Source of the DNA: Bowmanella denitrificans
GTDB taxonomy: Bacteria; Pseudomonadota; Gammaproteobacteria; Enterobacterales; Alteromonadaceae
NCBI RefSeq assembly: GCF_002887595.1
Contig: NZ_PEBU01000008.1
Location: forward strand, 1 to 64,000
Length of the DNA: 64,000 nucleotides
Direction of reading: 5' to 3'
Shown here: piece after piece, positions 5,463 to 39,064 of the stretch
How positions within the stretch are numbered: the stretch's first letter is position 1
Layout: every line of letters begins with the position of its first letter
The notes under the pieces: generated by a model
Told to the model about the DNA's origin: nothing
Database searches by the model: none
What the model saw: the letters and a program-made list of their open reading frames with translations, nothing else
Translations under genes and position numbers: made by a program

Positions 5463-7052
5463 TTAGCGGGTGGCCAGATCGGCATCCCGCGCAGGCTTAA
5501 ACTCAGCGCCAACTTTCCAGGCAGGCCAGGCATCAGAATTACCCAGTTTCTCGGTCAGCGTATAAATCAGCTCCAGATCCTGGCGCACGCCGCCATATTG
5601 CCAGCTATCCAGAAATTCATCGCTGGGCTTATGATAACGATTGGCAATATAGTCAGGATCGCTGTCACCTAAATCCATAAACAGCAGTCCGGGTACCCCC
5701 TGTTTGGCCAGCGCAAAATGATCGGAGCGAAAAAACAAGCCGTTTTGTGGGTTGGCATCCGGCTTGATATGGCGGTTTTGCCCCACTGCAGCGTCAGCCA
5801 ACCAGTCTTCCAGTTCCTGCAGTCCCTGGCCATACTGAATGACATAGTCTGACTCACCCGTCATATTCATGCTGTCGATGTTCATCAGTGCCACCATGTT
5901 TTTGGTGGGGACGGGAGGCTGGGCAGCGAAGGCCTGCGCCCCCAGTAAACCGGTCTCTTCAGCGGTAAAGAAGGCCAGCAGCACCGAACGCTGCAGTGGT
6001 TGCTTGCGCTGTTTAAGCATTCTGGCCAATTCCAGAACACCGGCCACTCCGGTGGCGTTGTCCACCGCGGCATTGAAAATATTGTCGCCTTTTACACCAA
6101 CCTTTTTGCCAAACCCGTCCCAATGAGCCGACAAAACCACATACTCGTCGGCCCGGCTGGTACCAGGGATCAGGCCAATCACATTGCGGCTTTCGCCCAT
6201 CTGATGCCAGTGGCGGGTTTGCAGATCGGCATGAATGCCCAGGTCCACGGCTTTAAAACCCGGCTGGGCAGCTGCCGCTTTCAATTCGTCGAAATCCAGG
6301 CCTAGCTGGGAGAACAATGCACGGGTGCTGTCGGTTTGGATCCAGCCCATCGCTTCCAACTCCCCGGCGTTATCATTGTCATCCACCAGGGTGAATTTTG
6401 TGCCGGTGGCACCGGATTCCACAACCGACCAGGGGTAACCCGCCGCGCCAGTTTCGTGCACAATAAACACGCCAGCTGCGCCGCGACGAATGGCTTCTTC
6501 ATATTTATAAGTCCAGCGCCCGTAATAGGTCATAGCATTACCGCGGAACACCTCAGGATCCTGAGTTGCGTAACCGGGATCATTCACCAGCATCAACAGG
6601 GTTTTGCCCTTAACATCCAGCCCCTGATAGTCATTCCAGCTATACTCCGGGGCATCAATGCCATAGCCGACAAACACCACAGCAGAGGATTTAAGCTCAG
6701 TGCGGGACGCCACTTTCTGGGTGCGGGATACAAAGTCCTTGCCAGGCTTAAAGGTCAAGGGTCCCATTTTTAGCTGCATGTCCTGGGAAGCGGCAATCCC
6801 CGCCATCGGTACTTTCTGCACAAAGTCACCAAAATAGCCAGGCTGCACTCCCAGTGCTTTTAATTCCTGAACAAGATACTGAATGGTTTTCTCTTCACCT
6901 GCAGACATAGGGGCCCGGCCCTCAAATGCATCAGACGCAATCGTTTTTACCTGCTGCTGATAATTGTCGGCGGAGAACACCACCTTGTCCGGTGTCGCCA
7001 ATACAGAGGCTGACAAGCCTATACAACCTAAAAACAGGTATCTTCTTAACAT
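5463..7052 (-). CDS. Secreted M28 peptidase with inserted PA domain
   Basis: About 529 aa with signal peptide ending VLA/TPDK. The M28 fold is interrupted at about residues 125-260 by a protease-associated (PA) domain (AAGVFIVHETGAAGYPW). Zinc and catalytic residues are seen in LSAHWDGFG, NAAVDNATGVAG, TAEETGLLGAQAF, NIDSMNMTG and FRSDHFALAKQG. The family includes large aminopeptidases that release N-terminal residues outside the cytoplasm. The start is ATG 7052, or 7064 if four residues are added; either way it overlaps the end of the preceding gene, suggesting coupling. Confidence 0.9.
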   Translation of the reverse strand: MLRRYLFLGCIGLSASVLATPDKVVFSADNYQQQVKTIASDAFEGRAPMSAGEEKTIQYLVQELKALGVQPGYFGDFVQKVPMAGIAASQDMQLKMGPLTFKPGKDFVSRTQKVASRTELKSSAVVFVGYGIDAPEYSWNDYQGLDVKGKTLLMLVNDPGYATQDPEVFRGNAMTYYGRWTYKYEEAIRRGAAGVFIVHETGAAGYPWSVVESGATGTKFTLVDDNDNAGELEAMGWIQTDSTRALFSQLGLDFDELKAAAAQPGFKAVDLGIHADLQTRHWHQMGESRNVIGLIPGTSRADEYVVLSAHWDGFGKKVGVKGDNIFNAAVDNATGVAGVLELARMLKQRKQPLQRSVLLAFFTAEETGLLGAQAFAAQPPVPTKNMVALMNIDSMNMTGESDYVIQYGQGLQELEDWLADAAVGQNRHIKPDANPQNGLFFRSDHFALAKQGVPGLLFMDLGDSDPDYIANRYHKPSDEFLDSWQYGGVRQDLELIYTLTEKLGNSDAWPAWKVGAEFKPARDADLATR

Positions 7053-7053
7053 C

Positions 7054-7488
7054 TCAACCCCCATTCCCCGTCACTACCGAGGATGCGTTTTTAATTTGTT
7101 CCAACAGCCACAGATGCGCAGACTGCTGGTCGGTAAAGAAAGCATGTGGCATCTCTGCGCCCTGGTATATTTGTCGCCATAACTGTTCCACCAGGCCCGG
7201 ATAATTGGCATCGGCCAGCACCACCGCCGCAGCCACCATGCCGCTCGCTTTGGAACGGCCTATAGAGATATTCATCAACTGCACTGCATCATGGGTCAAT
7301 AAGGACTCACCATGCAGCACCACGAGATTCCCCCAGGGCTGCCCCGACAAAGCCTGACGATACTCCTGCACAGCCTGCTGATAGCTTTCGATCAATTCCG
7401 CATTGCCGGGGCCTTCACCATGCAGCAACAAAACTCGCCCATCAAGCGCTAACGAAAAACTTCCATGTGCCCTGAACATATTTGCCAT
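7054..7488 (-). CDS. STAS/SpoIIAA-like small protein of unknown function
   Basis: 144 aa, soluble, no signal. The layout (short beta strands, DGRVLLLHGEGPGNAE, then LVVLHGESLLTHDAVQ and a last alpha segment PHAFFTDQQSAHLWLLEQI) resembles SpoIIAA/STAS-like proteins, where residues like ALEWL or HLWLL close the domain. The protein at 18700 has the same general pattern. The assignment is fold-level inference. Its stop overlaps the start of the PA-M28 peptidase gene. Confidence 0.65.
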   Translation of the reverse strand: MANMFRAHGSFSLALDGRVLLLHGEGPGNAELIESYQQAVQEYRQALSGQPWGNLVVLHGESLLTHDAVQLMNISIGRSKASGMVAAAVVLADANYPGLVEQLWRQIYQGAEMPHAFFTDQQSAHLWLLEQIKNASSVVTGNGG

Positions 7489-7582
7489 TCCAACCTGATA
7501 CTCGCGGTACTGTTTTTAGATTACGTCATTGTAACCAAGCGCCTCTGTGCTGCCAGCAGATTGAGCAGCACGTCAGACCAGC

Positions 7583-9412
7583 CTAGTCTAAGCCAAGAAA
7601 TCCGCCGGTCTGATGCGCCCATAACTTGGCATAGATACCCTGCTTTGCCAGCAGTTCTGCATGAGTACCGGATTCCACCACCCGGCCCTGATCCAACACC
7701 AGCAGTCTGTCCATAGCGGCGATAGTGGATAGCCGGTGGGCAATGGCCAGCACGGTTTTGTTTTGCATAACCTTGTTAAGACAATCCTGAATCGCCACTT
7801 CCACTTCAGAATCCAGTGCCGAGGTGGCTTCATCCAAAATCAAAATGGGCGCATCCTTGAGCATCACCCGGGCAATAGCAATGCGCTGACGCTGCCCACC
7901 GGACAAGGTCACGCCTCGTTCACCCACATGGGCATCGTAGCCGGTGCGGCCATGTAAGTCCGAAAGATTCTGAATAAAATCATGGGCTTCAGCTTGTTTG
8001 GCAGCCTTGATCATATCCTCTTCGCTGGCATCCATGCGGCCGTACAGAATATTCTCACGAACCGAACGATGCAGCAGTGAAGTATCCTGAGTCACCATGC
8101 TGATATGTTCGCGCAGACTCTCCTGACTGACATCGCGAATATCCTGCCCGTCAATCAGAATCTTACCTGAGTTGAGATCATAAAAACGCAAAAGCAGATT
8201 AACCAGAGTGGACTTGCCGGCACCAGAACGGCCCACCAGCCCGACTTTTTCGCCGGGCTTGATCTGAATCGTTAATTCATCGAACACCTTGTTGCGGTTG
8301 TCATAAGCAAAACTGGCCTGACGAAATTCTATGCCGCCACCTTTGATTGTCAGAGGTTTCGCATCAGGTCTATCCAGCACCGCCACGGGTTTTGACAGGG
8401 TATTCATACCGTCCTGCACGGTGCCAAGATTTTCAAACAAGCCAGCCACTTCCCACATTATCCATTGCGACATCCCGTTCAGACGCAGTGCCAGACTCAC
8501 TGCAACGGCAATATCACCAGGGCTGGCAAGTTGCTGCAACCATAAGTAGATGGCCAGCGCACTGGTGGAAAAAATCAGTAGCGCATTACTAAACCAGACA
8601 CAGGCGTTTAATACCGTTACCAGGCGCATTTGCGGATACACCGTGGTCAGAAAACTGTCCATACTGTCTCTGGCGTACTGGGTTTCCCGACTGGTATGAG
8701 CAAACAGCTTGACCGTGGTGATGTTGGTGTAACTGTCCACCACTCGACCTGTCATTACCGAACGCGCGTCAGCCTGGCGCTCGGAGATTTTCTCCAGACG
8801 CGGTAGCAATACTCTTAGAATCCCCACATAAACCAGAAACCAAATTCCCAGTGGCAATGCCAGACGCCAGTCGACGGCAAACACCACTACAAAGGCACTG
8901 ATAAAATAGACGCTGACATAAACCATCAGGTCTAACAGCTTGAGTACCGTCTCACGCACCGACAGCGCTGTCTGCATCACTTTGGTGGCCACCCGCCCCG
9001 CAAACTCATGCTGGAAGAAGCCCAGACTCTGGCTAAGCAGATAGCGGTGAGCCTGCCAACGAATGCGCATCGGGAAGTTACCCAGCAAGCCCTGATGGTG
9101 AACCAGTGAGTGCAGCAGCACAGCACCGGGCAGCAGTAATAAAATTACCACGCTCATCAACAGCAGGCTCTGGCTTTCCTGCTGCAAAAAGGTGGCTCTG
9201 TCCCGGGTTGCAAACCAGTCCACCATTTGGCCCAGGTAACCAAACAAGCTGACTTCCAGAATAGCAATCAGGGCGCTGAGGATGGACAAACTGATGATCA
9301 CCCGTTTGGCACCACGGCAATAGTACAGACAAAATGCCAGCATTGTGCCTGGCGGCTTGACAGGTGCTTGTTCGGGAAAGGCTTTTACCAGCCGCTCAAA
9401 AATAGCAAACAT
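7583..9412 (-). CDS. ABC exporter, fused permease and ATPase
   Basis: 609 aa half-transporter of the MsbA/MdlB-like type. About six membrane segments occupy residues 25-320. The nucleotide-binding domain has Walker A GRSGAGKST, Q-loop VTQDTSLLHRSV, signature LSGGQRQRIAIAR, Walker B ILILDEATSALD and H-loop IAHRLST. It would act as a homodimer in the inner membrane; the substrate cannot be told from sequence. ATG 9412 has an AAGGA site. It stands alone between a gene desert of repeats and the STAS-like gene. Confidence 0.9.
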   Translation of the reverse strand: MFAIFERLVKAFPEQAPVKPPGTMLAFCLYYCRGAKRVIISLSILSALIAILEVSLFGYLGQMVDWFATRDRATFLQQESQSLLLMSVVILLLLPGAVLLHSLVHHQGLLGNFPMRIRWQAHRYLLSQSLGFFQHEFAGRVATKVMQTALSVRETVLKLLDLMVYVSVYFISAFVVVFAVDWRLALPLGIWFLVYVGILRVLLPRLEKISERQADARSVMTGRVVDSYTNITTVKLFAHTSRETQYARDSMDSFLTTVYPQMRLVTVLNACVWFSNALLIFSTSALAIYLWLQQLASPGDIAVAVSLALRLNGMSQWIMWEVAGLFENLGTVQDGMNTLSKPVAVLDRPDAKPLTIKGGGIEFRQASFAYDNRNKVFDELTIQIKPGEKVGLVGRSGAGKSTLVNLLLRFYDLNSGKILIDGQDIRDVSQESLREHISMVTQDTSLLHRSVRENILYGRMDASEEDMIKAAKQAEAHDFIQNLSDLHGRTGYDAHVGERGVTLSGGQRQRIAIARVMLKDAPILILDEATSALDSEVEVAIQDCLNKVMQNKTVLAIAHRLSTIAAMDRLLVLDQGRVVESGTHAELLAKQGIYAKLWAHQTGGFLGLD

Positions 9413-9742
9413 TTTATTCCTTATCTAAAGGCACAGAGAACACAGAGGGGTTGATGGGCCAAAACTCTGCAGGCTTCTCTCCACGCCTGAAAGCCAAGAG
9501 CATCCCCTGAAACCTCCGTGCTCTTCGTTCCTCGGTGGTGACAATCTATCTGCGCAACAGTATAAAAACCAAAGAGGCACAGAACACAAAGTGATTGTAG
9601 ATTTTGCCACTGTGCACCTTGCTTTGCGCACTCAGCGGCTCTGCGAGCTATCTTCATTCACCGCCGAGGCGCACAGAGCGCAGAGTTTTTAAGGGCCTGT
9701 GTAAAACCCTATATGGGCTGCGTAAGGCTAAAGTAAAAATCG
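9413..9742. repeat. Intergenic repeat, GCACAGAGAACACAGAG family
   Basis: I see no gene. The stretch contains several forward and inverted copies of text like GGCACAGAGAACACAGAG (9429, 9575, 9670) and CTCGGTGGTGACAATCTATC (about 9531). The same family recurs near 25.3-25.8, 26.8, 33.4, 38.6 and 43.0-43.5 kb. The GGTGACTATCTATTTGCGC form near 43.09 and 43.35 kb is clearly homologous to the unit here. Confidence 0.75.
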
Positions 9743-11119
9743 TTAAAGCTTACGAGCGCGAAAGCGCCGGCCTTTAATTTTACCTTCACGTAAGTAAGCA
9801 AGTGCTCGCTTAACACTGCGGGCTTTTATCGCAACATAGCTGTGAGAATCCAATAAACTAATTTGGCCAATATCCACACCTTCCACCCCACCATCTTTGC
9901 TTAACGCGCCAAGAATATCCCCTGGCCGCAATTTGTCTTTACGGCCTCCTTCAATGCACAGGGTTCTGAACGCAGGTTCACGAATGGCCCGACCGTTATA
10001 ACGCACTTTGCTGATATCGGCCCAGGAAATGGCCTGCTGCTGCAGATCTTCTATGGCTGCAGCCCTTGAGGCTTCCTGCGGTGAACACAAGGTTAGGGCC
10101 AGGCCCTGACTGTCGGCCCGGCCGGTGCGGCCAATACGATGAATATGGGTTTCAGGATCGCTGGCCAGATGATAATTCACCACTACAGCCACATCCTTAA
10201 TATCCAGACCACGAGCTGCCACATCGGTGGCCACCAGAATATTCAGACTGCGGTGAGCAAACTGCAACAGTACTTCCTGACGCTGACGCTGTTCCATATC
10301 GCCGTGCAACGCCAAAGCGCTAAAGCCTTTTTCATTCAGGTCGTCTGCCACTTGCTGACATTCTGCCCGGGTATTACAAAATACCATGCAGGACTCCGGT
10401 TCAAAATGCGTCAGCAAACAACGCAGTCCATGCAAACGCTTGTCGTCACTTATTTCATAAAAGAACTGGCGGATCTTACTTTGACTGTGCACGGCCTCAA
10501 CCACGATGCGTTGCGGCTGTCTCTGTAGGGTGCGGCTAATCTGCTCGATAGCAGTGGGGTATGTGGCAGAAAACAGCAAGGTCTGCCTGCTGCTGGGCGT
10601 GGTACGAACCAGTTTGTCCAGGTCTTCAGCAAACCCCATATCCAGCATACGATCGGCTTCATCCAGAACCAGAGTGTTCACCTGACTCAGCGATAAATTA
10701 CCGCGCAGCACATGGTCTAATACCCGGCCCGGCGTGCCCACCACAACCTGAGCCTGATGTTGCAATGAACTCACCTGCGCAGCCATGGGTACGCCGCCAT
10801 ATAATGCCAGTACTTTGATATTGTCCCGAAAGCGCGCCAGTTTGCGGATTTCACCACACACCTGCTCGGCCAGTTCACGGATCGGACACAACACCAGGGC
10901 CTGCGTCGCTATTTGTTCAGGTGTCAGGCGATTCAGTAAACCAATGCTGAATGCAACGGTTTTGCCACTGCCCGTGCTGGCCTGAGCAATAACATCCTGC
11001 CCGGCCAGAATGACTGGCAGGCTGGCGGCCTGTATTTCGGTCATCTGCGAATACCCTAAGGCAACCAGGTTATCTTGCATGGCAACGGGTAAAGACAGGG
11101 CTGAGAAAGCAGTGCGCAT
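9743..11119 (-). CDS. dbpA: ATP-dependent RNA helicase DbpA
   Basis: 458 aa DEAD-box helicase that remodels 23S rRNA during 50S ribosome assembly. Motifs in order: Q motif (MTEIQAASLP), I ASTGSGKT, II LDEADRMLD, III SAT, V TDVAARGLD, VI HRIGRTGR. The C-terminal 80 residues form the DbpA RNA-binding (RRM-like) domain (LRPGDILGALSKDGGVEGVDIGQI), which recognises hairpin 92 of 23S rRNA. Length matches E. coli DbpA (457 aa). It is monocistronic and divergent from the channel gene. Confidence 0.96.
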   Translation of the reverse strand: MRTAFSALSLPVAMQDNLVALGYSQMTEIQAASLPVILAGQDVIAQASTGSGKTVAFSIGLLNRLTPEQIATQALVLCPIRELAEQVCGEIRKLARFRDNIKVLALYGGVPMAAQVSSLQHQAQVVVGTPGRVLDHVLRGNLSLSQVNTLVLDEADRMLDMGFAEDLDKLVRTTPSSRQTLLFSATYPTAIEQISRTLQRQPQRIVVEAVHSQSKIRQFFYEISDDKRLHGLRCLLTHFEPESCMVFCNTRAECQQVADDLNEKGFSALALHGDMEQRQRQEVLLQFAHRSLNILVATDVAARGLDIKDVAVVVNYHLASDPETHIHRIGRTGRADSQGLALTLCSPQEASRAAAIEDLQQQAISWADISKVRYNGRAIREPAFRTLCIEGGRKDKLRPGDILGALSKDGGVEGVDIGQISLLDSHSYVAIKARSVKRALAYLREGKIKGRRFRARKL

Positions 11120-24804: not shown

Positions 24805-25304
24805 TAAACATCATTCAGGCCGATTTTAACCATCCACAGGTGCTTGAACTGCTTAGACTGCATCTGCAGGGCATGCAGCAGAACTCTCCGGCAGGCCATG
24901 TATTTGCCCTGGATTTATCCGGCCTGCAGCAGCCAGATATCAGCTTGTACTGCCTGTGGAATGGCGAGCATGCCTGCGGCATTGGCGCATTAAAAGCACT
25001 CAATACAGACTCTGGTGAAATCAAATCCATGCGTACCCACCCCAACTGGCTGAAGCAGGGAGTGGCCAGGCAATTACTGGAACATATTATCTATGAGGCC
25101 CGCCAGCGAGGCTATCAGCGGTTAATGCTGGAAACCGGCTCAGGCGAGGCGTTTGAGCCCGCGATCCGGCTCTATCAGCGCTATGGTTTTGTTAGCGGCC
25201 CGGCGTTTGCGGACTATGTCAAAAGCCCGTTTAATCAGTTTTTTCAGTTGGATCTGTTCAATCTGGCTCCGGATTTGATTCATTCCACCACTACAGGTGA
25301 TTAA
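24801..25304 (+). CDS. GNAT-family N-acetyltransferase
   Basis: 167 aa from ATG 24801, inside the ATGA overlap with the regulator gene. The acetyl-CoA site is seen as MRTHPNWLKQGVARQLLEHII (Q/RxxGxG/A type), followed by MLETGSGEAFEPAIRLYQRYGFVSG. This is the PhnO/YjdJ-like small-molecule acetyltransferase type; the substrate is unknown. Confidence 0.9.
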   Translation: MINIIQADFNHPQVLELLRLHLQGMQQNSPAGHVFALDLSGLQQPDISLYCLWNGEHACGIGALKALNTDSGEIKSMRTHPNWLKQGVARQLLEHIIYEARQRGYQRLMLETGSGEAFEPAIRLYQRYGFVSGPAFADYVKSPFNQFFQLDLFNLAPDLIHSTTTGD

Positions 25305-25847
25305 AAACTGTTTCACCACGAGGAAGCCTTTCTCGCAAAGTCGCAAAGAACCCGGGGAAATTGAAAACGACAGATACCTCAGTGAGCTATTCTCTGCGGC
25401 CTCTGCGTCACAGCGAGAGGCATTCTGCGGGCTATTCTTTGCCCCCTAAGCGTATTTGTGAGAAGCCTTTGTATTCACCGCCGAGTCGCAGAGAACGCAG
25501 AGTTTCCAATAAGATCAGCTTCTTACATACTCGTTTTAGCCAATGTCGCTTCTTATGTGGGTCTGCCCCTTTTTATCTGGATCTGACCCTTTTTATCTTT
25601 GCAGTGAGCTATTCTCTGCGGCCTCTGCGTCACAGCGAGAGGCATTCTGCGGGCTATTCTTTGCCCCCTAAGCGTATTTGTGAGAAGCCTTTGTATTCAC
25701 CGCCGAGTCGCAGAGAACGCAGAGTTTCCAATAAGATCAGTATCTTAGATACTCGTTTTAGCGAGGGTCGCTTCTAATGTGGATCTGACCCTTCTTATCC
25801 CTGGATCTGACCCTTCTTATCCCCGGAGAGACTTGCCTGCACCATTT
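25305..25847. repeat. Repeat-rich intergenic block with a perfect 138-bp direct repeat
   Basis: No real gene. A 138-bp unit at 25381-25518 recurs exactly at 25603-25740, 222 bp apart; similarity continues for about 40 bp beyond (CTCGTTTTAGC, GTCGCTTCT). A third, partial copy is at about 26826-26925. The unit contains GCAGAGAACGCAGAG text of the intergenic family seen at 9.5 and 43 kb. ATCTGACCC motifs recur at 25580, 25783 and 25806. The open frame through both copies encodes the repeat twice and is not considered a gene. Confidence 0.85.
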
Positions 25848-26701: not shown

Positions 26702-26962
26702 AATTTTTACCTTTGAATTTAACGCAATGTCGATATTGGATGTAACCCGCACTCATTTCAAGTCAGCCCATCAGAGCGTCCTGCCTGTTGCCCTGCAGGC
26801 CAGCTAAAGCTGTGCAGTCTGGTTTTTGTATTCACCGCCGAGTCGCAGAGAACGCAGAGTTTCCAATAAGATCAGCATGTTACATACTCGTTTTAGTCAG
26901 TGTCGCTTCTTATGTGTATCTGACCCTGTTTATACAAGCCCCCCGGCTACCCGATTAGAATC
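26702..26962. repeat. Intergenic repeats
   Basis: No gene. About 26765-26820 holds an inverted copy of the AACAGGCAGGACGCTCGAAT repeat seen complete at 33508-33575 and 38709-38785. It is followed by the third, partial copy of the 25.4-kb direct repeat (26826-26925). Confidence 0.7.
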
Positions 26963-27812: not shown

Positions 27813-28248
27813 AGATAACCTCCTTATTATTTCGCGAAAATGCAGAAAAGTTGGCATTCTAACGAATGCTATGAACTCCCCCTTTTCTCGGAGTTTTCCA
27901 AACTAAGTGGCAACTGTTGAGGAGAACCGTCATGTCAAATTTAAACTAAGTCTATGGCGTTGATTTAGCCACATTGCATCTCAGTATTTACGGTAAATGC
28001 TGTTGTGGCAAGGCAGAAGCCCCTTAACTTTCATGTTGGATATGACGCGCAGCCCCATGCACGCCTGTCCCATTTATACCAGACGTCCTGTCTGTTGCCC
28101 TGCAGGCCAGCTAAAGCTGTGCAATCTGGTCCCTATCGGCCCACATCAGATAATTAAGTATGTTTCAGCACGATGAAGCCTTTTGTATTCACCGCCGCTT
28201 CCGGCTGCATCCGCTTGTATAGTGTTACTTGCAGCTCGCGTCTTATTA
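27813..28248. repeat. Intergenic stretch with repeat fragments
   Basis: No gene. 28041-28076 is a copy of the TATGACGCGC...GTCCCATTT palindromic unit, and 28084-28130 is another inverted fragment of the GGCAACAGGCAGGACG repeat. Text at 28170-28195 resembles the CACGA-GAAGCCT-TTTGTATTCACCGCCG junctions at 25.3 kb. The first 200 bp show no feature. Confidence 0.55.
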
Positions 28249-28820: not shown

Positions 28821-28859
28821 CTTTACTGCGCGGTAAAGAAACGAGACGCAAAGAAAGCG

Positions 28860-29039
28860 CGCCCGCTGGATTCCCAACAACGTCAGTCCAGGGCACTGCT
28901 AAAAGGCGGTCGTGAAAACGACGTTCCAGACGCGTCTTCCACTCAATTTGCTCCCAGCAAATTGCCCACCTTTTAGCAGCACCCTGAACCGACCGGAAAT
29001 TTTTTAGCGGGGGGCAAAGCGGCTTGGGCCGCTTAAGGG
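28860..29039 (+). repeat. Left copy of a 180-bp inverted repeat with a multi-hairpin core
   Basis: This 180-bp stretch is nearly identical to the reverse complement of 32841-33020. Within it 28889-28986 can fold as an outer stem (CTGCTAAAAGG 28896-28906 with CCTTTTAGCAG 28969-28979), a GTCGT-GAAA-ACGAC hairpin (28909-28922), the palindrome AGACGCGTCT (28928-28937) and a CAATTTGCT-CCC-AGCAAATTG hairpin (28944-28964). Translation of either copy gives the same peptide (AKRWAICWEQIEW), but there is no ribosome site, so I treat it as a structured repeat and not a gene. Confidence 0.8.
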
Positions 29040-29084: not shown

Positions 29085-30846
29085 CAGGCTGTGTAAAAAC
29101 TAGTTTTTTGTAGCATCTCAGTATTATCCCAGGCCTTTGATGTAAGAATTTCTTTGGAGTTGTCTGTATACACTCTGATTTGTTTCCAGTCGGTTTGGGG
29201 GCTTTAAAAGCGGGGTATTCAGTACTTTTGAGTGGTTTTCCGGGGTCTAAAGCGTTTATAGCGGCTAGCCCCAGTGCTCTTGAAGCTTACTGGCTAGTCC
29301 TTCAGTGCCCCAGATTGATATCATCCGTTTCAGGTTGTAGGCCAGTACATGTAGACTGATTTCGGTGCTGACATTTTTAAATCGTCGCATCAGGAAGTGA
29401 GTCGCACCCATCCACATTTTAATTGTTCCAAACGGATGCTCTACCGTTTGCTTTCGGATAACTGCTGTTTGTGGAAGTGCATCAAGCCTAGCTTGCATAT
29501 CTTCCATTTCACCTTCATGAACCCATCGTCTGATACGTCTGGGATCGCGCTTGGATGTGGTGCATTTTGACCGCTGGCTGCAATCTCGGCAGGCGATATT
29601 ATTGAAGTACATCTGAAGTTCCAGTCCGTCTTCAACTGCTGTAAACCTATTCTGAAGCTCGCTACCAGCCGGGCAAATATAGACGTCCTTTTCTCTGTCA
29701 TACCTAAACAGCGAACGGTTATAAAGACCTTTACGGCCAGCACCAGAGGTGTCACCTTTTGGCACCAGGGCTGTGGCTCCTAAGTCTTGAGCTGCTTTAA
29801 TATCACTACGGCTGTAATAGCCTTTATCAGCCAGTACGGTAATATCGGCCTTGCCAACAGCATCTTGCGCCAATTTCGTTACCGCCGTTAGTTGTCCACG
29901 ATCAGGTGTATTTGTCACTTCATGGGCAACAATCAAGTGATGCTTGGCATCCACGGCGGTCTGAACGTTGTAGCTAACCTGACGGTTTACATTGTTTATC
30001 TTCATCAACCGCGAATCTGGATCTGTTAGTGATAGCTGTTTATCAGGGTGTTGCTCTACCTCCTGCTGAACTTGCTTTAGCTCTTCTAAACGCCTTTGAA
30101 GCCATGCCAGTTTAGCCGCTGTTAAATCTGCATTTTTTTCAAGCTCTGCGCTCTTGTCGGCATCATCGAGCTTATTCAAATACAGGCAGATACTTTGCTC
30201 AACTCGTTCGATGTGGCCTTTAACTTTGCTGGGGGTATAGTTATTAGATTTGCTGTTTACCGCTTTGAACTTGCTGCCGTCGATGGCAACAACCACATCT
30301 GTGAACATTTGCATCTGCCGACACAAGTCGATAAAAGCCCGGCAAGCATTCTTGATACCTTTACCGTTACTTTTTCTGAAGTCTGCGATGGTTTTAAAGT
30401 CTGGGGTTAGTCGTTCCAGTAGCCACATCAGCTCAACGTTCCGATGTGCTTCTTTTTCCAGCCTGCGGGAAGATTGTATGCGGTTCAGGTATCCATAAAT
30501 GTATAGCTTCAGCATGGTCGCCGGGTGATATCCTGGTCGCCCAGTCTGTTTAGCGCTGACTCGCTCGAAACCCAGAGAATCAAGTTGGAGTCCATCAACA
30601 AAGATATCGACCACTCGCACAGGGTTATCTTCAGTAACGAAGTCATCCAGCGCTTCAGGAAGTAAGGTTACTTGATGCCTGCCTTGGCCTTTTATATGGT
30701 GGGTCATACCAGCACACTTTGTTCTAATTCGTATGCTGTGAATTTTAGTAAAGTGGCAGGTAACCACTTGGCTTTATCAAGAACGATTGATCATATAAAT
30801 CTGCTGCTTAGGCCAAAAGGTGATCAGCAGTTTTCACACAGCCTGT
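29085..30846 (-). mobile_element. IS1182-family insertion sequence, complete
   Basis: About 1.76 kb. Terminal inverted repeats are CAGGCTGTGTAAAAAC at 29085-29100 and, on the other strand, CAGGCTGTGTGAAAAC at 30831-30846 (15 of 16 matches). The element is flanked by TGCC on both sides (29081-29084 and 30847-30850), a likely 4-bp target duplication. The intact ends and intact transposase suggest a recent insertion. It sits next to the left 180-bp inverted repeat. Confidence 0.88.
29265..30707 (-). CDS. IS1182-family transposase
   Basis: 480 aa from ATG 30707. The N-terminal DUF772-type domain (DNPVRVVDIFVDGL, GRPGYHPATMLKLYIYGYLNRIQSSRRLEKEA) is followed by the DDE domain: VVVAIDGSKFKAVNSK (D), VTVLADKGYYSRSDI-like ITVLADKGYY (D), and the late E in VEHPFGTIKMWMG. 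A cysteine pattern CRDCSQRSKC lies before the last motif, as is usual in this family. It looks intact. Confidence 0.93.
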   Translation of the reverse strand: MTHHIKGQGRHQVTLLPEALDDFVTEDNPVRVVDIFVDGLQLDSLGFERVSAKQTGRPGYHPATMLKLYIYGYLNRIQSSRRLEKEAHRNVELMWLLERLTPDFKTIADFRKSNGKGIKNACRAFIDLCRQMQMFTDVVVAIDGSKFKAVNSKSNNYTPSKVKGHIERVEQSICLYLNKLDDADKSAELEKNADLTAAKLAWLQRRLEELKQVQQEVEQHPDKQLSLTDPDSRLMKINNVNRQVSYNVQTAVDAKHHLIVAHEVTNTPDRGQLTAVTKLAQDAVGKADITVLADKGYYSRSDIKAAQDLGATALVPKGDTSGAGRKGLYNRSLFRYDREKDVYICPAGSELQNRFTAVEDGLELQMYFNNIACRDCSQRSKCTTSKRDPRRIRRWVHEGEMEDMQARLDALPQTAVIRKQTVEHPFGTIKMWMGATHFLMRRFKNVSTEISLHVLAYNLKRMISIWGTEGLASKLQEHWG

Positions 30847-30989: not shown

Positions 30990-31562
30990 TTATTGATTGT
31001 TCTCTGAATACCATCTCATTGAGGTCATGATGCTGTGATAAACGTTATATATAAACGACTTGCATAGCATCAAAATTAATACCATTAATGCATAAACTAA
31101 CGGCTCTATTATGCTTATCAAAACTTCAATTTCAAAACTAATGCCATTAGCCATCTCCAAGAAGGCAAAGAATAAGAGGGATAGAAATGCAATCAACAAT
31201 AAATCTACTAGTATTCGGATAAAGATGCAATGGGAGTATTTCAAATAATTCAACTTGGTCGTAGGTTCTATATGGTCAGCAAGTTCATGTTGCAACTCTT
31301 TATCTGTAAGAGTTGCAAAGATTGCGTAGCCTGCCAATATAAAACCCATTATTGAAAGCAAAGTGGATAACAATAACTTTAGAGCGTCTTTAACCCTGTC
31401 GAATTCATCAACTTCAATCTTTAGTCCATCATAGTTATAGCTAAAGAAAATGATATAAGACACAATGAAGATCAAAACGTTGTCTTTTGAGTCTGGTATC
31501 TTCCTCGTTAATGCATAAAGTTTCCAGAAGTTATTCTCTTCTGTGAGATCTTCAAATTTCAT
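30990..31562 (-). CDS. Four-helix membrane protein of a two-gene module, unknown
   Basis: 190 aa, about four transmembrane helices (VLIFIVSYIIFFSYNY, LLLSTLLSIMGFILAGYAIFA, ILVDLLLIAFLSLLFFAFLEMA, LISIIEPLVYALMVLILMLC) with charged loops and no signal peptide. I recognise no family. It starts 3 nt after the stop of the soluble partner gene, so both are on one mRNA. The DNA is clearly AT-richer than the chromosome backbone. By analogy with RexB or KwaA, also small four-helix membrane partners in phage-defence pairs, it might act at the inner membrane; this is inference. Confidence 0.75.
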   Translation of the reverse strand: MKFEDLTEENNFWKLYALTRKIPDSKDNVLIFIVSYIIFFSYNYDGLKIEVDEFDRVKDALKLLLSTLLSIMGFILAGYAIFATLTDKELQHELADHIEPTTKLNYLKYSHCIFIRILVDLLLIAFLSLLFFAFLEMANGISFEIEVLISIIEPLVYALMVLILMLCKSFIYNVYHSIMTSMRWYSENNQ

Positions 31563-31565
31563 TGT

Positions 31566-32591
31566 TTACCTTTTTATGATATCTAATAAATACTTGATTT
31601 TTTCTTTAACTTTTTCAATATCTGTTATCCTAGGACCTCTAACTATTCCATCTTTTACTAGATCTTGAAATCTTTCGTATACCTTCTTTGTCAGCAAAAT
31701 AGGATCGTCATCATGCTCTCCCAATGGAACAGTAAGCTTAAAGCTTTCGTTGGTTCCAACTAACTTGTCATCATGAATGTCTTTGCCAACTACCTTTAGC
31801 AAAATATTTCTGTCATCAGCGGCTTCTTTAGCCAGGTCTGCAACAGGTGAAGGGGGGAGTGACTTCTTATCTTTTGAGAATGTCACTGTGGATTTGGAGT
31901 TTGGAATTGTTTTTTTCTTCTTTCTCCAGCTCTCAAAGAAGGGATTTGAGTCAGATTCATTATTAGGAGTAACTAAGTCAAGAGATATTTTGTCAATAAC
32001 TTTGAAGCTCTTAATGAATTCCTCAATGTCGGCATCCGAAGATAGGGGAATGATATTTACTTCAGGCTTTCCATAGGTTACATTTAAATCTTTCTTGGTC
32101 TTCTTTCTTCCTGTTTTTCCACGGAACTCATACTTTTCTTTTTCTGCTTGATAAATATCTTCTATCAAAGCATCCCTTTCTTCACTGATGAATCTCTCTA
32201 TGCAAGCTCGAAAAGTATCAAGCGAAGGAGCAAATTTGTGCTCCTTTATAAAGAATAATTGATGGTCTTTCAAAGACAAAATAAATATTGATGATGGGGA
32301 GTTCTGCAAAGCAGTGGGGTCATCTTTAAGCTCTCCATCTAAATATACTTGCTCCCTTTCCAAAAATGTGTCTTTAACCAGTCTGCCGAAAACAAAAGGA
32401 ATGCTCTCGTCTTCCGCTCCATAAATAACCTCCAGCAACTGAGGGTTGTAGAAAAAACATCTAGATTCTCCATAATGTCTTTCATGTTTATTAAAAAAAG
32501 CCGGATGCACAAAATCTAGGTAGCTTTCTAATAAGTTTCTTTCTCCAACATGACAGACAAAGTTTGCAAATTCAATATTTAAATCTTTCAA
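31566..32591 (-). CDS. Soluble partner of the two-gene module, unknown
   Basis: 341 aa, no signal or membrane segment. The N-terminal half (ESRCFFYNPQLLEVIYGAEDESIPFVFGRLVKDTFLERE, SSIFILSLKDHQLFFIKEHKFAPSLDTFRACI) has beta-rich text; a basic stretch KYEFRGKTGRKKTKKD follows, then a possible second alpha/beta domain (VNIIPLSSDADIEEFIKSFKVIDKISLDLVTPNN) and a lysine-rich linker. The order of elements recalls phage lambda RexA, and the gene order soluble-then-membrane matches rexA-rexB, but sequence identity is not evident to me. The gene is AT-rich and lies between an IS and inverted repeats. Confidence 0.7.
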   Translation of the reverse strand: MKDLNIEFANFVCHVGERNLLESYLDFVHPAFFNKHERHYGESRCFFYNPQLLEVIYGAEDESIPFVFGRLVKDTFLEREQVYLDGELKDDPTALQNSPSSIFILSLKDHQLFFIKEHKFAPSLDTFRACIERFISEERDALIEDIYQAEKEKYEFRGKTGRKKTKKDLNVTYGKPEVNIIPLSSDADIEEFIKSFKVIDKISLDLVTPNNESDSNPFFESWRKKKKTIPNSKSTVTFSKDKKSLPPSPVADLAKEAADDRNILLKVVGKDIHDDKLVGTNESFKLTVPLGEHDDDPILLTKKVYERFQDLVKDGIVRGPRITDIEKVKEKIKYLLDIIKR

Positions 32592-32840
32592 GCACAGGTC
32601 CTTACTTCTTGTTTATTTTATATAGTCCCAAACGTGACCGCAATAAAAGGGTCAGATCCAAATTAACGCCCTACCACTCTACTGAGCCGTCACTATGACG
32701 CCAAGCTTAATTGCTAATGTCCGCTTTGCTCAACCCAGCCATTCACAAAGTGGCATTAGTTATGAAATCCTCGCACTTGCGATAGTCAAAAGTTGATTTG
32801 TCGTTGGTGGACCAATTGCTCGTTGAATAAACCTATGATG

Positions 32841-33020
32841 CCCTTAAGCGGCCCAAGCCGCTTTGACCCCGCTTAAAAATTCCCGGTCGGTTCAGGGCGC
32901 TGCTAAAAGGTGGGCAATTTGCTGGGAGCAAATTGAGTGGAAGACGCGTCTGGAACGTCGTTTTCACGACCGCCTTTTAGCAGTGCCCTGGACTGACGTT
33001 GTTGGGAATCCAGCGGGCGT
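32841..33020 (-). repeat. Right copy of the 180-bp inverted repeat with multi-hairpin core
   Basis: Reverse complement of 28860-29039 with very few differences. In the 98-nt core (32893-32990) only one base differs, and that change (GCGCCCTG versus GCACCCTG on the shared strand) extends the outer stem. The two copies bracket the IS1182 element and the two-gene module. Confidence 0.8.
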
Positions 33021-33271
33021 GTTTCTTTTGGTTACTTTTCTTTGCACGAGCAAAGAAAAGTGACTGGCGCGCCTGGACGGCGTGTCATAAAAAACAGGGA
33101 AGTTGCTAAATCAGGGCAACAAAAGCCCCTGTTTGTTGCCCAATCTACAATAAACAATTCGGCGGGCGCTTTGAAAGCTACGTCTCTGTAGCTTTTCCTT
33201 CGGACCAGCATAAAGCTGTCCAAAATTTTTCCTGAAAACTTGGTCTTTGCGTCTAGTTTCTTCACCACAAA

Positions 33272-33316: not shown

Positions 33317-33507
33317 CGAGAATGGACGACCACGAACTACACGAAAAGGCACAAACCGGCCTTCGGCCGATCTTAGAATACCTCTCACAGTGACGCGGAG
33401 GCGCAGAGAAAAGCGCGCGAAGGTATTTACTGCTTCAATTGCTCTGAGTTCTCAGCGACTCAGCGAGAATGGCTTCTTCGTGGTGAAACAGTTTTTTTAC
33501 CTGTAGT

Positions 33508-33612
33508 GGTGTCAGGAAACAGATTGAACAGCGTTAGCTGGCCTGAAAGGCAACAGGCAGGACGCTCGAATGGGACAGGCGCGCCAGGTACAGCGCGTCA
33601 TCAAGAACAGGG
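33508..33612 (+). repeat. GTAGTGGTGTCAGG interspersed repeat plus palindromic unit
   Basis: 33508-33575 is nearly identical to 38709-38785, both preceded by GGTGAAACAG and followed by a GGGAC-GG palindromic unit. Shortened inverted relatives lie at 26765-26820, 28084-28130 and about 25283-25322. Confidence 0.75.
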
Positions 33613-33821
33613 AAGTATGCTGGAAAATCCCCTTACGCCTTGACATCCGTTACGCAAGTTCAAAGCCTTACCATCGAAAGATCACAAAAAATCTGAGGGT
33701 TCTCATTTGCAGGTTAAGCTTGACTATAATCAGCGAAGAAACAAGTTCAATCAATTTTTTGTACTGGCTCAGACTAGGGGCTTACTACTGCTAATTTTCC
33801 TTAGTTAATGTGCGTTTCCAC

Positions 33822-38377: not shown

Positions 38378-39064
38378 AGTTGAGAGCACACAAATGGGGC
38401 CAAGTCTTGCATTTTGCATGGTGATATTACATTTTAAAACGGCCGTTGTTCGCTCAACCCAGCCATCCACAAGGTGCCATATGTGCAGAAATCCTAGCAC
38501 CTACATTAGTAAAAAGTTGGTTGGCCGTTAACGGACCAATAATTAGTCAAGCAAACCGACGGTGCCCTTAAGCGGCCCAAGCCGCTTTGACCCCCGCATT
38601 TCACAAATAATTATTTCTCCACCACGAAGATCAGAAGAACACGAAGAGTAGAAAATCGGATTTGCCCTTCGCGCACTTCGTGTTCTTCGTGGTGAAACAG
38701 ATTTTTTACCTGTAGTGGTGTCAGGAAACAGATTGAACAGCGTTAGCTGGCCTGAAAGGCAACAGGCAGGACGCTCGAATGGGACTGGTGCACCATGGAT
38801 GGAGTGTCATATCCAGCAGGGAAAGCCAAGTCAGAAACTCGCTCACCCCAGCCATTCACAAGTGGCATTAGTTCCGCAATCCTCGCACTTACGATAGCCA
38901 AAAGTTGGTTGGCAGTTGATAGACTAATTGTTAGTAAAATAAACCTATGACGCCCCTAAGCGGCCCAAGCCGCTTTGCCCCCGAAAAAACTCCCGGTAAT
39001 GATTTCTGGCGGTTCCGTCAGTGATAAAGATTCAACGCCTATTCTTATGTTCCCTTTGCTTTTT
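38378..39064. repeat. Gene-free block of interspersed repeats
   Basis: No gene. It holds two direct copies of the unit GCTCA[AC]CCCAGCCAT ... CTTAAGCGGCCCAAGCCGCTTTG (about 38450-38600 and 38842-38985), homologous to 32729-32870; between them are GCACTTCGTGTTCTTCGTGG text (38665) and the 38709-38822 repeat, a near-copy of 33508-33612. Confidence 0.75.

Follow-up and report, generated by a model that had tools for sequence, protein, structure and literature searches.

Two adjacent genes of Bowmanella denitrificans, here called A and B, probably form a RexAB-type abortive-infection (phage exclusion) module, with A as a sensor that activates a pore made by B. The genes lie in a 64,000-nucleotide stretch of contig NZ_PEBU01000008.1, referred to as the window. 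The analysis itself shows that the genes are conserved as a pair, that A has a RexA-like predicted fold, that B is built of four helices and that relatives occur in prophage or defence contexts; that A binds DNA and triggers B, and that B forms a pore so that infection is aborted, is inferred from lambda RexAB and from RexABpp of Pseudomonas putida. Most likely, the pair stands for a new family within the RexAB-type abortive-infection modules, one missed by the PADLOC and Pfam RexA models used. A preliminary description of this DNA had proposed a RexAB-like layout, and that reading is now backed by the fold of A, the gene order, the cI-A-B-int placement of relatives and the defence neighbours that some of them have.

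The gene pair and its surroundings

The 341-aa soluble and 190-aa membrane open reading frames that had been described were reproduced at the same coordinates, both on the minus strand and 3 nt apart (Table 1). The product of gene A is ~39.5 kDa. The AAAGG of gene B overlaps the last codons of gene A, and therefore translational coupling of the two genes appears likely from the sequence. A scan for promoters and terminators gave results at chance level only.

The pair is indeed AT-rich, with a GC content of 34–41% vs about 50% for most of the window. Low GC is not limited to the two genes, as the stretch at 26–40 kb has about 34–50%. Gene A has no match in four congener genomes. To its right, the segment 33822-37380 finds short 66–72% pieces in two of these four congeners and no match in the other two, and thus the accessory region continues on that side of the pair.

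Inverted repeat arms of 164 nt, 96% complementary to each other, flank the pair together with a transposase-like reading frame. The preliminary description had read these paired arms as fitting a mobile cassette. The repeats are real, but they are weak evidence for a cassette: the same repeat is interspersed through the genome with 40 matches, of which 12, both window arms included, are near full length. The arms therefore mark no transposon or mobile cassette, and a transposon bounded by the 164-nt repeats is rejected. More repeat families occur across the low-GC accessory stretch.

Table 1. Positions of the two genes, of their signals and surroundings in the window, and of features in related loci
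Feature	Record	Positions	Strand	Remarks	Basis
Gene A	window	31566-32591	minus	341 aa, TTG start; soluble RexA-type protein	ORF call, AlphaFold2, Foldseek
Gene B	window	30990-31562	minus	190 aa, ATG start; four-helix membrane protein, proposed RexB-type pore effector	ORF call, AlphaFold2, family alignment; function inferred
AAGGA, Shine-Dalgarno-like, gene A	window	32599-32603	minus	7 nt ahead of TTG	sequence
AAAGG, Shine-Dalgarno-like, gene B	window	31569-31573	minus	6 nt ahead of ATG, inside the last codons of gene A	sequence
Transposase-like ORF	window	29265-30767		500 aa, downstream of the pair	ORF list
Inverted repeat arms	window	28849-29012, 32867-33030		164 nt each	
Further repeat families	window	25303-25799, 26737-26934, 28084-28130, 32725-32870, 33434-33614, 38449-38982		low-GC accessory stretch	
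WYL-domain regulator	L010 (Pseudidiomarina)	6978-7847		directly upstream of the pair	
B frame	L004 (NZ_CP083056.1, Klebsiella pneumoniae plasmid)	9146-9643		without N-terminal part	
B gene	L005 (phage 4LV2017, NC_047818.1)	7037-7642		unannotated in the record	
ORF after B	L003 (Salinivibrio plasmid)	9706-10401		231 aa; annotated form 9793-10401	

Relatives and their distribution

Searches with tblastn found a copy of A with 55% identity on a Salinivibrio plasmid, and copies with 28% identity on a K. pneumoniae plasmid and in 13 Klebsiella phage records. A single-sequence scan of genome contigs detected no relative; an alignment-based scan of bacterial contigs found 10, and such scans of viral contigs yielded 10, 19 and 23 loci among the matches listed, in overlapping sets. 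A membrane reading frame follows A in all of the first 23 loci examined, at −35 to +8 nt, and both genes are present in each of 39 later loci (18 reached via A and 21 via B), many of which repeat contigs.

The soluble gene had been said to come first, as in rexAB, and co-occurrence in other genomes had been proposed as a check. Both points are borne out by 40 distinct records (the window, L002–L015, 24 viral contigs and L071, leaving out other Klebsiella phage and Escherichia coli records), 39 of which have the two genes side by side in the order A then B. Only L004 departs from this pattern: a P2-like prophage on a resistance plasmid, it carries A together with a B frame that is short of its N-terminal part (Table 1).

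Removal of redundancy at 90% left 27 A and 28 B sequences. An adjacent B is found in 27/27 non-redundant pairs, window included, and mean identity is about 40% for both A and B. Distance matrices of A and B over the 27 pairs are correlated with r = 0.94, a value reached in none of 9,999 permutations. The gap between the genes ranges from −71 to +8 nt, where the size of an overlap depends on the start codon chosen; A has 329–367 aa (27 members) and B 190–269 aa (28 members).

Among the hosts are Ferrimonas, Vibrio, Alteromonas, Pseudidiomarina, Shewanella, Thalassotalea, Alcanivorax, a Rhodocyclales MAG and Cerasicoccus (Verrucomicrobiota). The tree places the window copy with those of Salinivibrio and Ferrimonas, on a long branch. 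The spread is patchy. A match to A was present in two of 147 genomes searched, one of them the window's own; a class sample of 369 genomes contained it in the window's own genome only, and an order sample of 390 genomes around L015 only in that of L015. In E. coli, the pair is found in 11 of 5,426 complete genomes, with all copies at least 95% identical.

Two smaller observations concern individual records. The B gene of phage 4LV2017 is present in the sequence and lacks annotation. In the Salinivibrio plasmid, B is followed by another reading frame, whose annotated form has no Pfam match.

Protein A: fold and family

The absence of a nameable family for either protein had been remarked on, and it holds for Pfam, PADLOC and NCBIfam, where neither window protein has a match with a meaningful E-value; the best are a Pfam entry for A (E 0.14) and the PADLOC candidate PDC-M18B for B (0.081). 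Protein B also shows weak matches in PHROGs (E 4e-4 and 2e-3), both to entries with no function attached.

The fold is more informative for A. AlphaFold2 modelling with 17 aligned sequences gave a best model with mean pLDDT 85.4 and pTM 0.84; over all five models, pLDDT runs from 72.5 to 85.4. A Foldseek comparison with 350,542 PDB chains produced 473 matches at E up to 10 and one at E up to 0.001. This sole significant match, in the structural check against RexA that had been suggested beforehand, is lambda RexA itself (8twq_B; E 5.8e-6, probability 1.00). The alignment is full length, with 355 columns on a target of 279 residues, and the runner-up has E 0.18. RdgC, a structural relative of RexA according to the available text of the RexA paper (PMC11077077), is absent from the 50 PDB matches listed.

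The TM-score of A and RexA over the whole length is low (0.26/0.30, rmsd 14.6 Å), likely because of a difference in the interdomain hinge and the closed form of the RexA crystal. In its accessible description, RexA has a globular domain split by a dimerisation domain, with flexible loops joining the two, and its crystal form is closed (PMC11077077). The order of strands and helices in A fits this plan when compared by eye with that description. We propose that A would consist of a split globular domain (about residues 1–171 plus 296–340) around a dimerisation domain (about 175–290), with limits set by eye from the AlphaFold2 model and the published RexA account. A fold search of BFVD with A returned five uncharacterised phage proteins at E up to 3e-4.

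At the sequence level, the earlier statement that family membership is not shown stands, as the sequence-based methods fail to connect A with lambda RexA. Of 27 A-family members scanned (19 plus 8 more, without L033 and L044), none matches Pfam RexA (PF15969), for which lambda RexA (1e-97) and yong1 RexA (1.7e-79) served as positive controls; the CarolAnn, Sbash, Butters, Toast and Sejanus proteins do not match it either. Comparison of the family with nine known RexA-like proteins by hhalign and hmmsearch gave nothing clearly beyond noise. The top of 13 hhalign comparisons, with Butters+Toast, scored 26.7, and the null maximum from 100 single background reading frames was 24.3; Butters alone (23.9) and Toast alone (20.7) fall within the null. 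The lambda, CarolAnn and Butters RexA sets scored 14.6, 19.1 and 21.6 against one another, for which the null maximum, built with the A-family query, is a rough yardstick only. Known RexA sets thus fail to find one another, and the negative sequence result reflects a lack of power and not a difference.

Published accounts, in the parts available, describe DUF4747 as a motif that lambda RexA, Sbash gp30 and CarolAnn gp44 share, and Butters gp30 weakly so. A relative of A, L016, matches the Pfam model DUF4747 (PF15931) over residues 175–284 with E 1.3e-4 and 21.9 bits, below the curated cut-off of 27 bits. No member of the 27 scanned exceeds that cut-off, and no match other than that of L016 is listed. 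The CarolAnn, Sbash and Butters proteins, assigned to DUF4747 in print by HHpred, also have no HMMER match to PF15931. Two of ten listed E. coli records annotate their copy of A as a DUF4747 family protein.

A short motif, D-x-x-G-D-x-[LIVM], located close to the position of RexA R219/K221, occurs in 17 of 27 members and in three of four lambda-like RexA proteins. It is absent from five actinophage proteins and present in 6 of 269 background reading frames; the window copy of A has it without the G. The sharing of this motif with lambda-like RexA may be taken as a hint only.

Protein B: fold and sequence

The four helices that had been ascribed to the 190-aa protein reappear in its AlphaFold2 model (mean pLDDT 83.2, pTM 0.77), at residues 26–44, 52–85, 106–138 and 145–188. 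The model has no fold match in the PDB at E up to 0.001, and hhalign and hmmsearch comparisons of the B family with eight RexB-like proteins gave nothing clearly beyond noise. Homology with RexB, which had been put forward for checking, is not shown by these comparisons. The available text on RexBpp of P. putida likewise gives no HHpred hit for that protein (PMC12894663). When seven published RexBpp residues were used as a fingerprint, the best B member had four of the seven, a score equalled or passed by 41 of 200 nulls.

Residues invariant in 19 B members include L107-K108, ahead of the third long helix, and K168, F170, N173, Y175, M179 and W184 towards the C-terminus; conserved positions sit in the membrane helices and those flanking them. 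Counts of K+R in hand-set segments are 4.4 for the N-terminus (25 residues), 1.8 for loop 1 (15), 2.6 for the central segment (21), 1.3 for loop 3 (11.5) and 1.6 for the C-terminus (21). Only the N-terminus stands out, and thus charge does not settle the topology.

Genomic contexts

Several relatives have the order cI-A-B-int on one strand. These are the P2-like elements L005 (with near-copies L018 and L021), L031, L033 and L036, and the E. coli TUM2820 copy, the one E. coli context read. In L024 and L025 the pair comes after int, and in L024 it is behind both cI and int. Placement directly behind cI is found in four of 27 non-redundant members (L005, L031, L033 and L036), or five with L024. 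The cI-int interval of Vibrionaceae P2-related phages is a hotspot for defence, as far as the accessible text of the source goes (PMC9122126). Adjacency to a cI-type repressor is not universal among known Rex-like systems, Sbash being an example.

Other settings differ. In L008 a Zot-family gene lies upstream, and in L007 a G2P replication protein is matched close by, from which we infer settings of filamentous-phage type. By Pfam, the L009 pair comes straight after a type I restriction-modification operon, L014 has RE_endonuc upstream and AbiTii downstream, L012 has an FRG neighbour, L015 an SNF2-type helicase and NOV_C, and L006 AAA_21/AAA_15. The WYL-domain regulator ahead of the L010 pair (Table 1) is reminiscent of defence-system repressors such as CapW and BrxR. 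No cI or P2-type protein was detected at L006, L009, L014 and L015 by blastp against 11 P2-like reference proteins, and no recognised defence or phage gene was seen in the parts of L011 and L013 inspected. Beside the window pair, neighbouring reading frames judged by eye include no prophage repressor or integrase.

A look for the pair in defence islands had been recommended. Some relatives do stand beside restriction-modification, AbiTii, FRG and AAA genes, but the 20 neighbours submitted to Pfam were picked by eye, and the defence association is thus a selected list and not a statistic. Four of these neighbours drew no match, DUF429 and alpha-amylase were ordinary, Cas3_HD and an integrase scored only below the cut-off, and the others among the remainder are phage-type genes. 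The available text of a recent paper (EMBO J 2026, PMC13373217) reports 17 'DUF4747/CarolAnn' operons behind CapK-CapS regulators and loci at times preceded by restriction systems.

Likeness to known Rex-type systems

The A-B pair and lambda RexA-RexB share a soluble gene followed by a membrane gene on one strand, and the fold match of A to RexA is significant. Prophage relatives follow cI as cI-A-B-int, and the lambda order is cI-rexA-rexB. The two systems differ in size (341 aa in window A vs 279 in RexA; 190 aa in window B vs 144 in RexB) and in spacing, the rexA-rexB gap being 15 nt vs the −71 to +8 nt of the 27 pairs. They also differ in that the A family lacks a PF15969 match and B lacks detectable similarity to RexB.

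RexABpp (PP_5643/PP_5644) is an experimentally shown defence system in which both genes are needed, according to the accessible text (PMC12894663). As described there, it resembles the A-B pair in combining a RexA-like DNA-binding protein with a four-helix membrane effector, and it lies behind a CI-like prophage gene; RexApp has 37.5 kDa with its tag vs 39.5 kDa for window A. The likeness is drawn from the published description.

The two-gene build is shared as well by CarolAnn gp44/gp43, Sbash gp30/gp31, Butters gp30/gp31 and Toast gp42/gp41. In CarolAnn and Toast the pair is directly behind a repressor, as in some prophage relatives of A-B. These actinobacteriophage pairs resemble the A family in having no PF15969 match, but differ in their hosts, and their sequence similarity to A-B is not clearly above noise.

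Proposed mechanism and alternative readings

Protein A would be a RexA-like sensor, probably dimeric and DNA-binding, and B a four-helix inner-membrane protein that may oligomerise into a normally closed pore. During infection, A would sense phage DNA or a protein–DNA intermediate and then activate B; the activated B would make the membrane leaky, so that growth stops and the infection fails. In print, as far as the available parts of the papers go, non-specific DNA binding and dimerisation are reported for RexA, three homologues and RexApp (PMC11077077; PMC12894663), and, for lambda and P. putida, the RexA-type protein is a non-specific DNA binder and its membrane partner the effector (PMC12894663). 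The same accessible text states that RexApp overproduction leads to growth arrest and membrane leakage in part of the cells, both dependent on RexBpp and with no depolarisation measured, and that two-hybrid work showed no contact between RexApp and RexBpp (PMC12894663).

It is rather unlikely that the roles are exchanged, with A as an antiviral, growth-inhibiting effector that B holds at the membrane until infection. Butters gp30/gp31, a pair of the same build, is described in this way in the available text of PMC7542560 and in the discussion of PMC12894663, and it was the joint Butters+Toast set that exceeded the hhalign null, each partner singly staying within it. However, B is the effector for lambda, CarolAnn, Sbash and P. 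putida in the accessible parts of PMC12894663, and the location of conserved B positions in membrane and flanking helices agrees with an effector role no less than with a tethering one. A role mainly in tuning the lysis–lysogeny switch of a prophage, through binding of repressor or operator DNA and with exclusion secondary, is distinctly unlikely. The available text on RexA does report that it biases lambda CI-Cro and that its DNA binding does not track T4rII exclusion (PMC11077077), and some relatives lie directly behind cI; yet L006, L009, L014 and L015, which lack a cI or P2-type protein by blastp, stand by restriction, AAA or helicase genes.

The preliminary description had also drawn a parallel with Kiwa. 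Kiwa consists of a membrane protein and a soluble protein, and its gene order is reversed relative to A-B. The membrane-plus-soluble layout is the sole likeness, and a relationship to KwaA-KwaB is extremely improbable. None of 19 members searched at E up to 1, and none of 8 more at E up to 10, matches KwaB (PF16162), and PADLOC, which presumably includes Kiwa models, reports no Kiwa match for the window proteins or for 19 A members; both searches were run without a known-Kiwa positive control. A genome search for KwaB had no match anywhere, controls included, and no Kiwa protein is among the 50 PDB fold matches listed for A. With no match from PF16162, PADLOC or the listed folds, and with the proviso on controls just given, a Kiwa identity is rejected. 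An ordinary transporter, stress or housekeeping pair, placed in the accessory island by chance, is scarcely to be entertained: the window proteins do lack a function from Pfam, NCBIfam or PADLOC, but the patchy spread (own genome plus 1/146 and own plus 0/368), the phage and defence contexts and the RexA fold of A all speak against it.

Significance

The RexAB-type reading adds 27 non-redundant pairs, from phages and bacteria, to systems of this kind. A 2026 paper counts, in its accessible text, only five described RexAB-like systems, and states there that the activation of lambda RexAB is still unknown (PMC12894663). The pairs are unrecognised by PADLOC models (19 members scanned) and by Pfam RexA (27 scanned). 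The DefenseFinder model for RexAB was built from Pfam or COG according to the available text (PMC9090908), and therefore it probably misses the A-B pairs too. No paper on the pair was found in the open-licence literature by title or start of abstract. We file A-B as a new family within RexAB in the broad sense, outside Pfam RexA, with PP_5643/PP_5644 compared by description.

The balance tips slightly towards a wider view, in which a large RexAB lineage, invisible to the RexA models employed, may have travelled as a portable module well outside the lambda-type immunity region. Its settings would be P2-like cI-int hotspots, filamentous-phage-type elements, plasmids, IS-rich stretches and chromosomal defence neighbourhoods, and its hosts Gammaproteobacteria, a Rhodocyclales MAG and one verrucomicrobial genome; sometimes a regulator of its own (the WYL protein of L010) or, in L009, a type I restriction system precedes it. 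If this is true, copies seemingly outside prophages allow one to ask directly what activates Rex, a question that has stood since Benzer. The copies in P2-like prophages of E. coli make the mechanism testable in laboratory strains.
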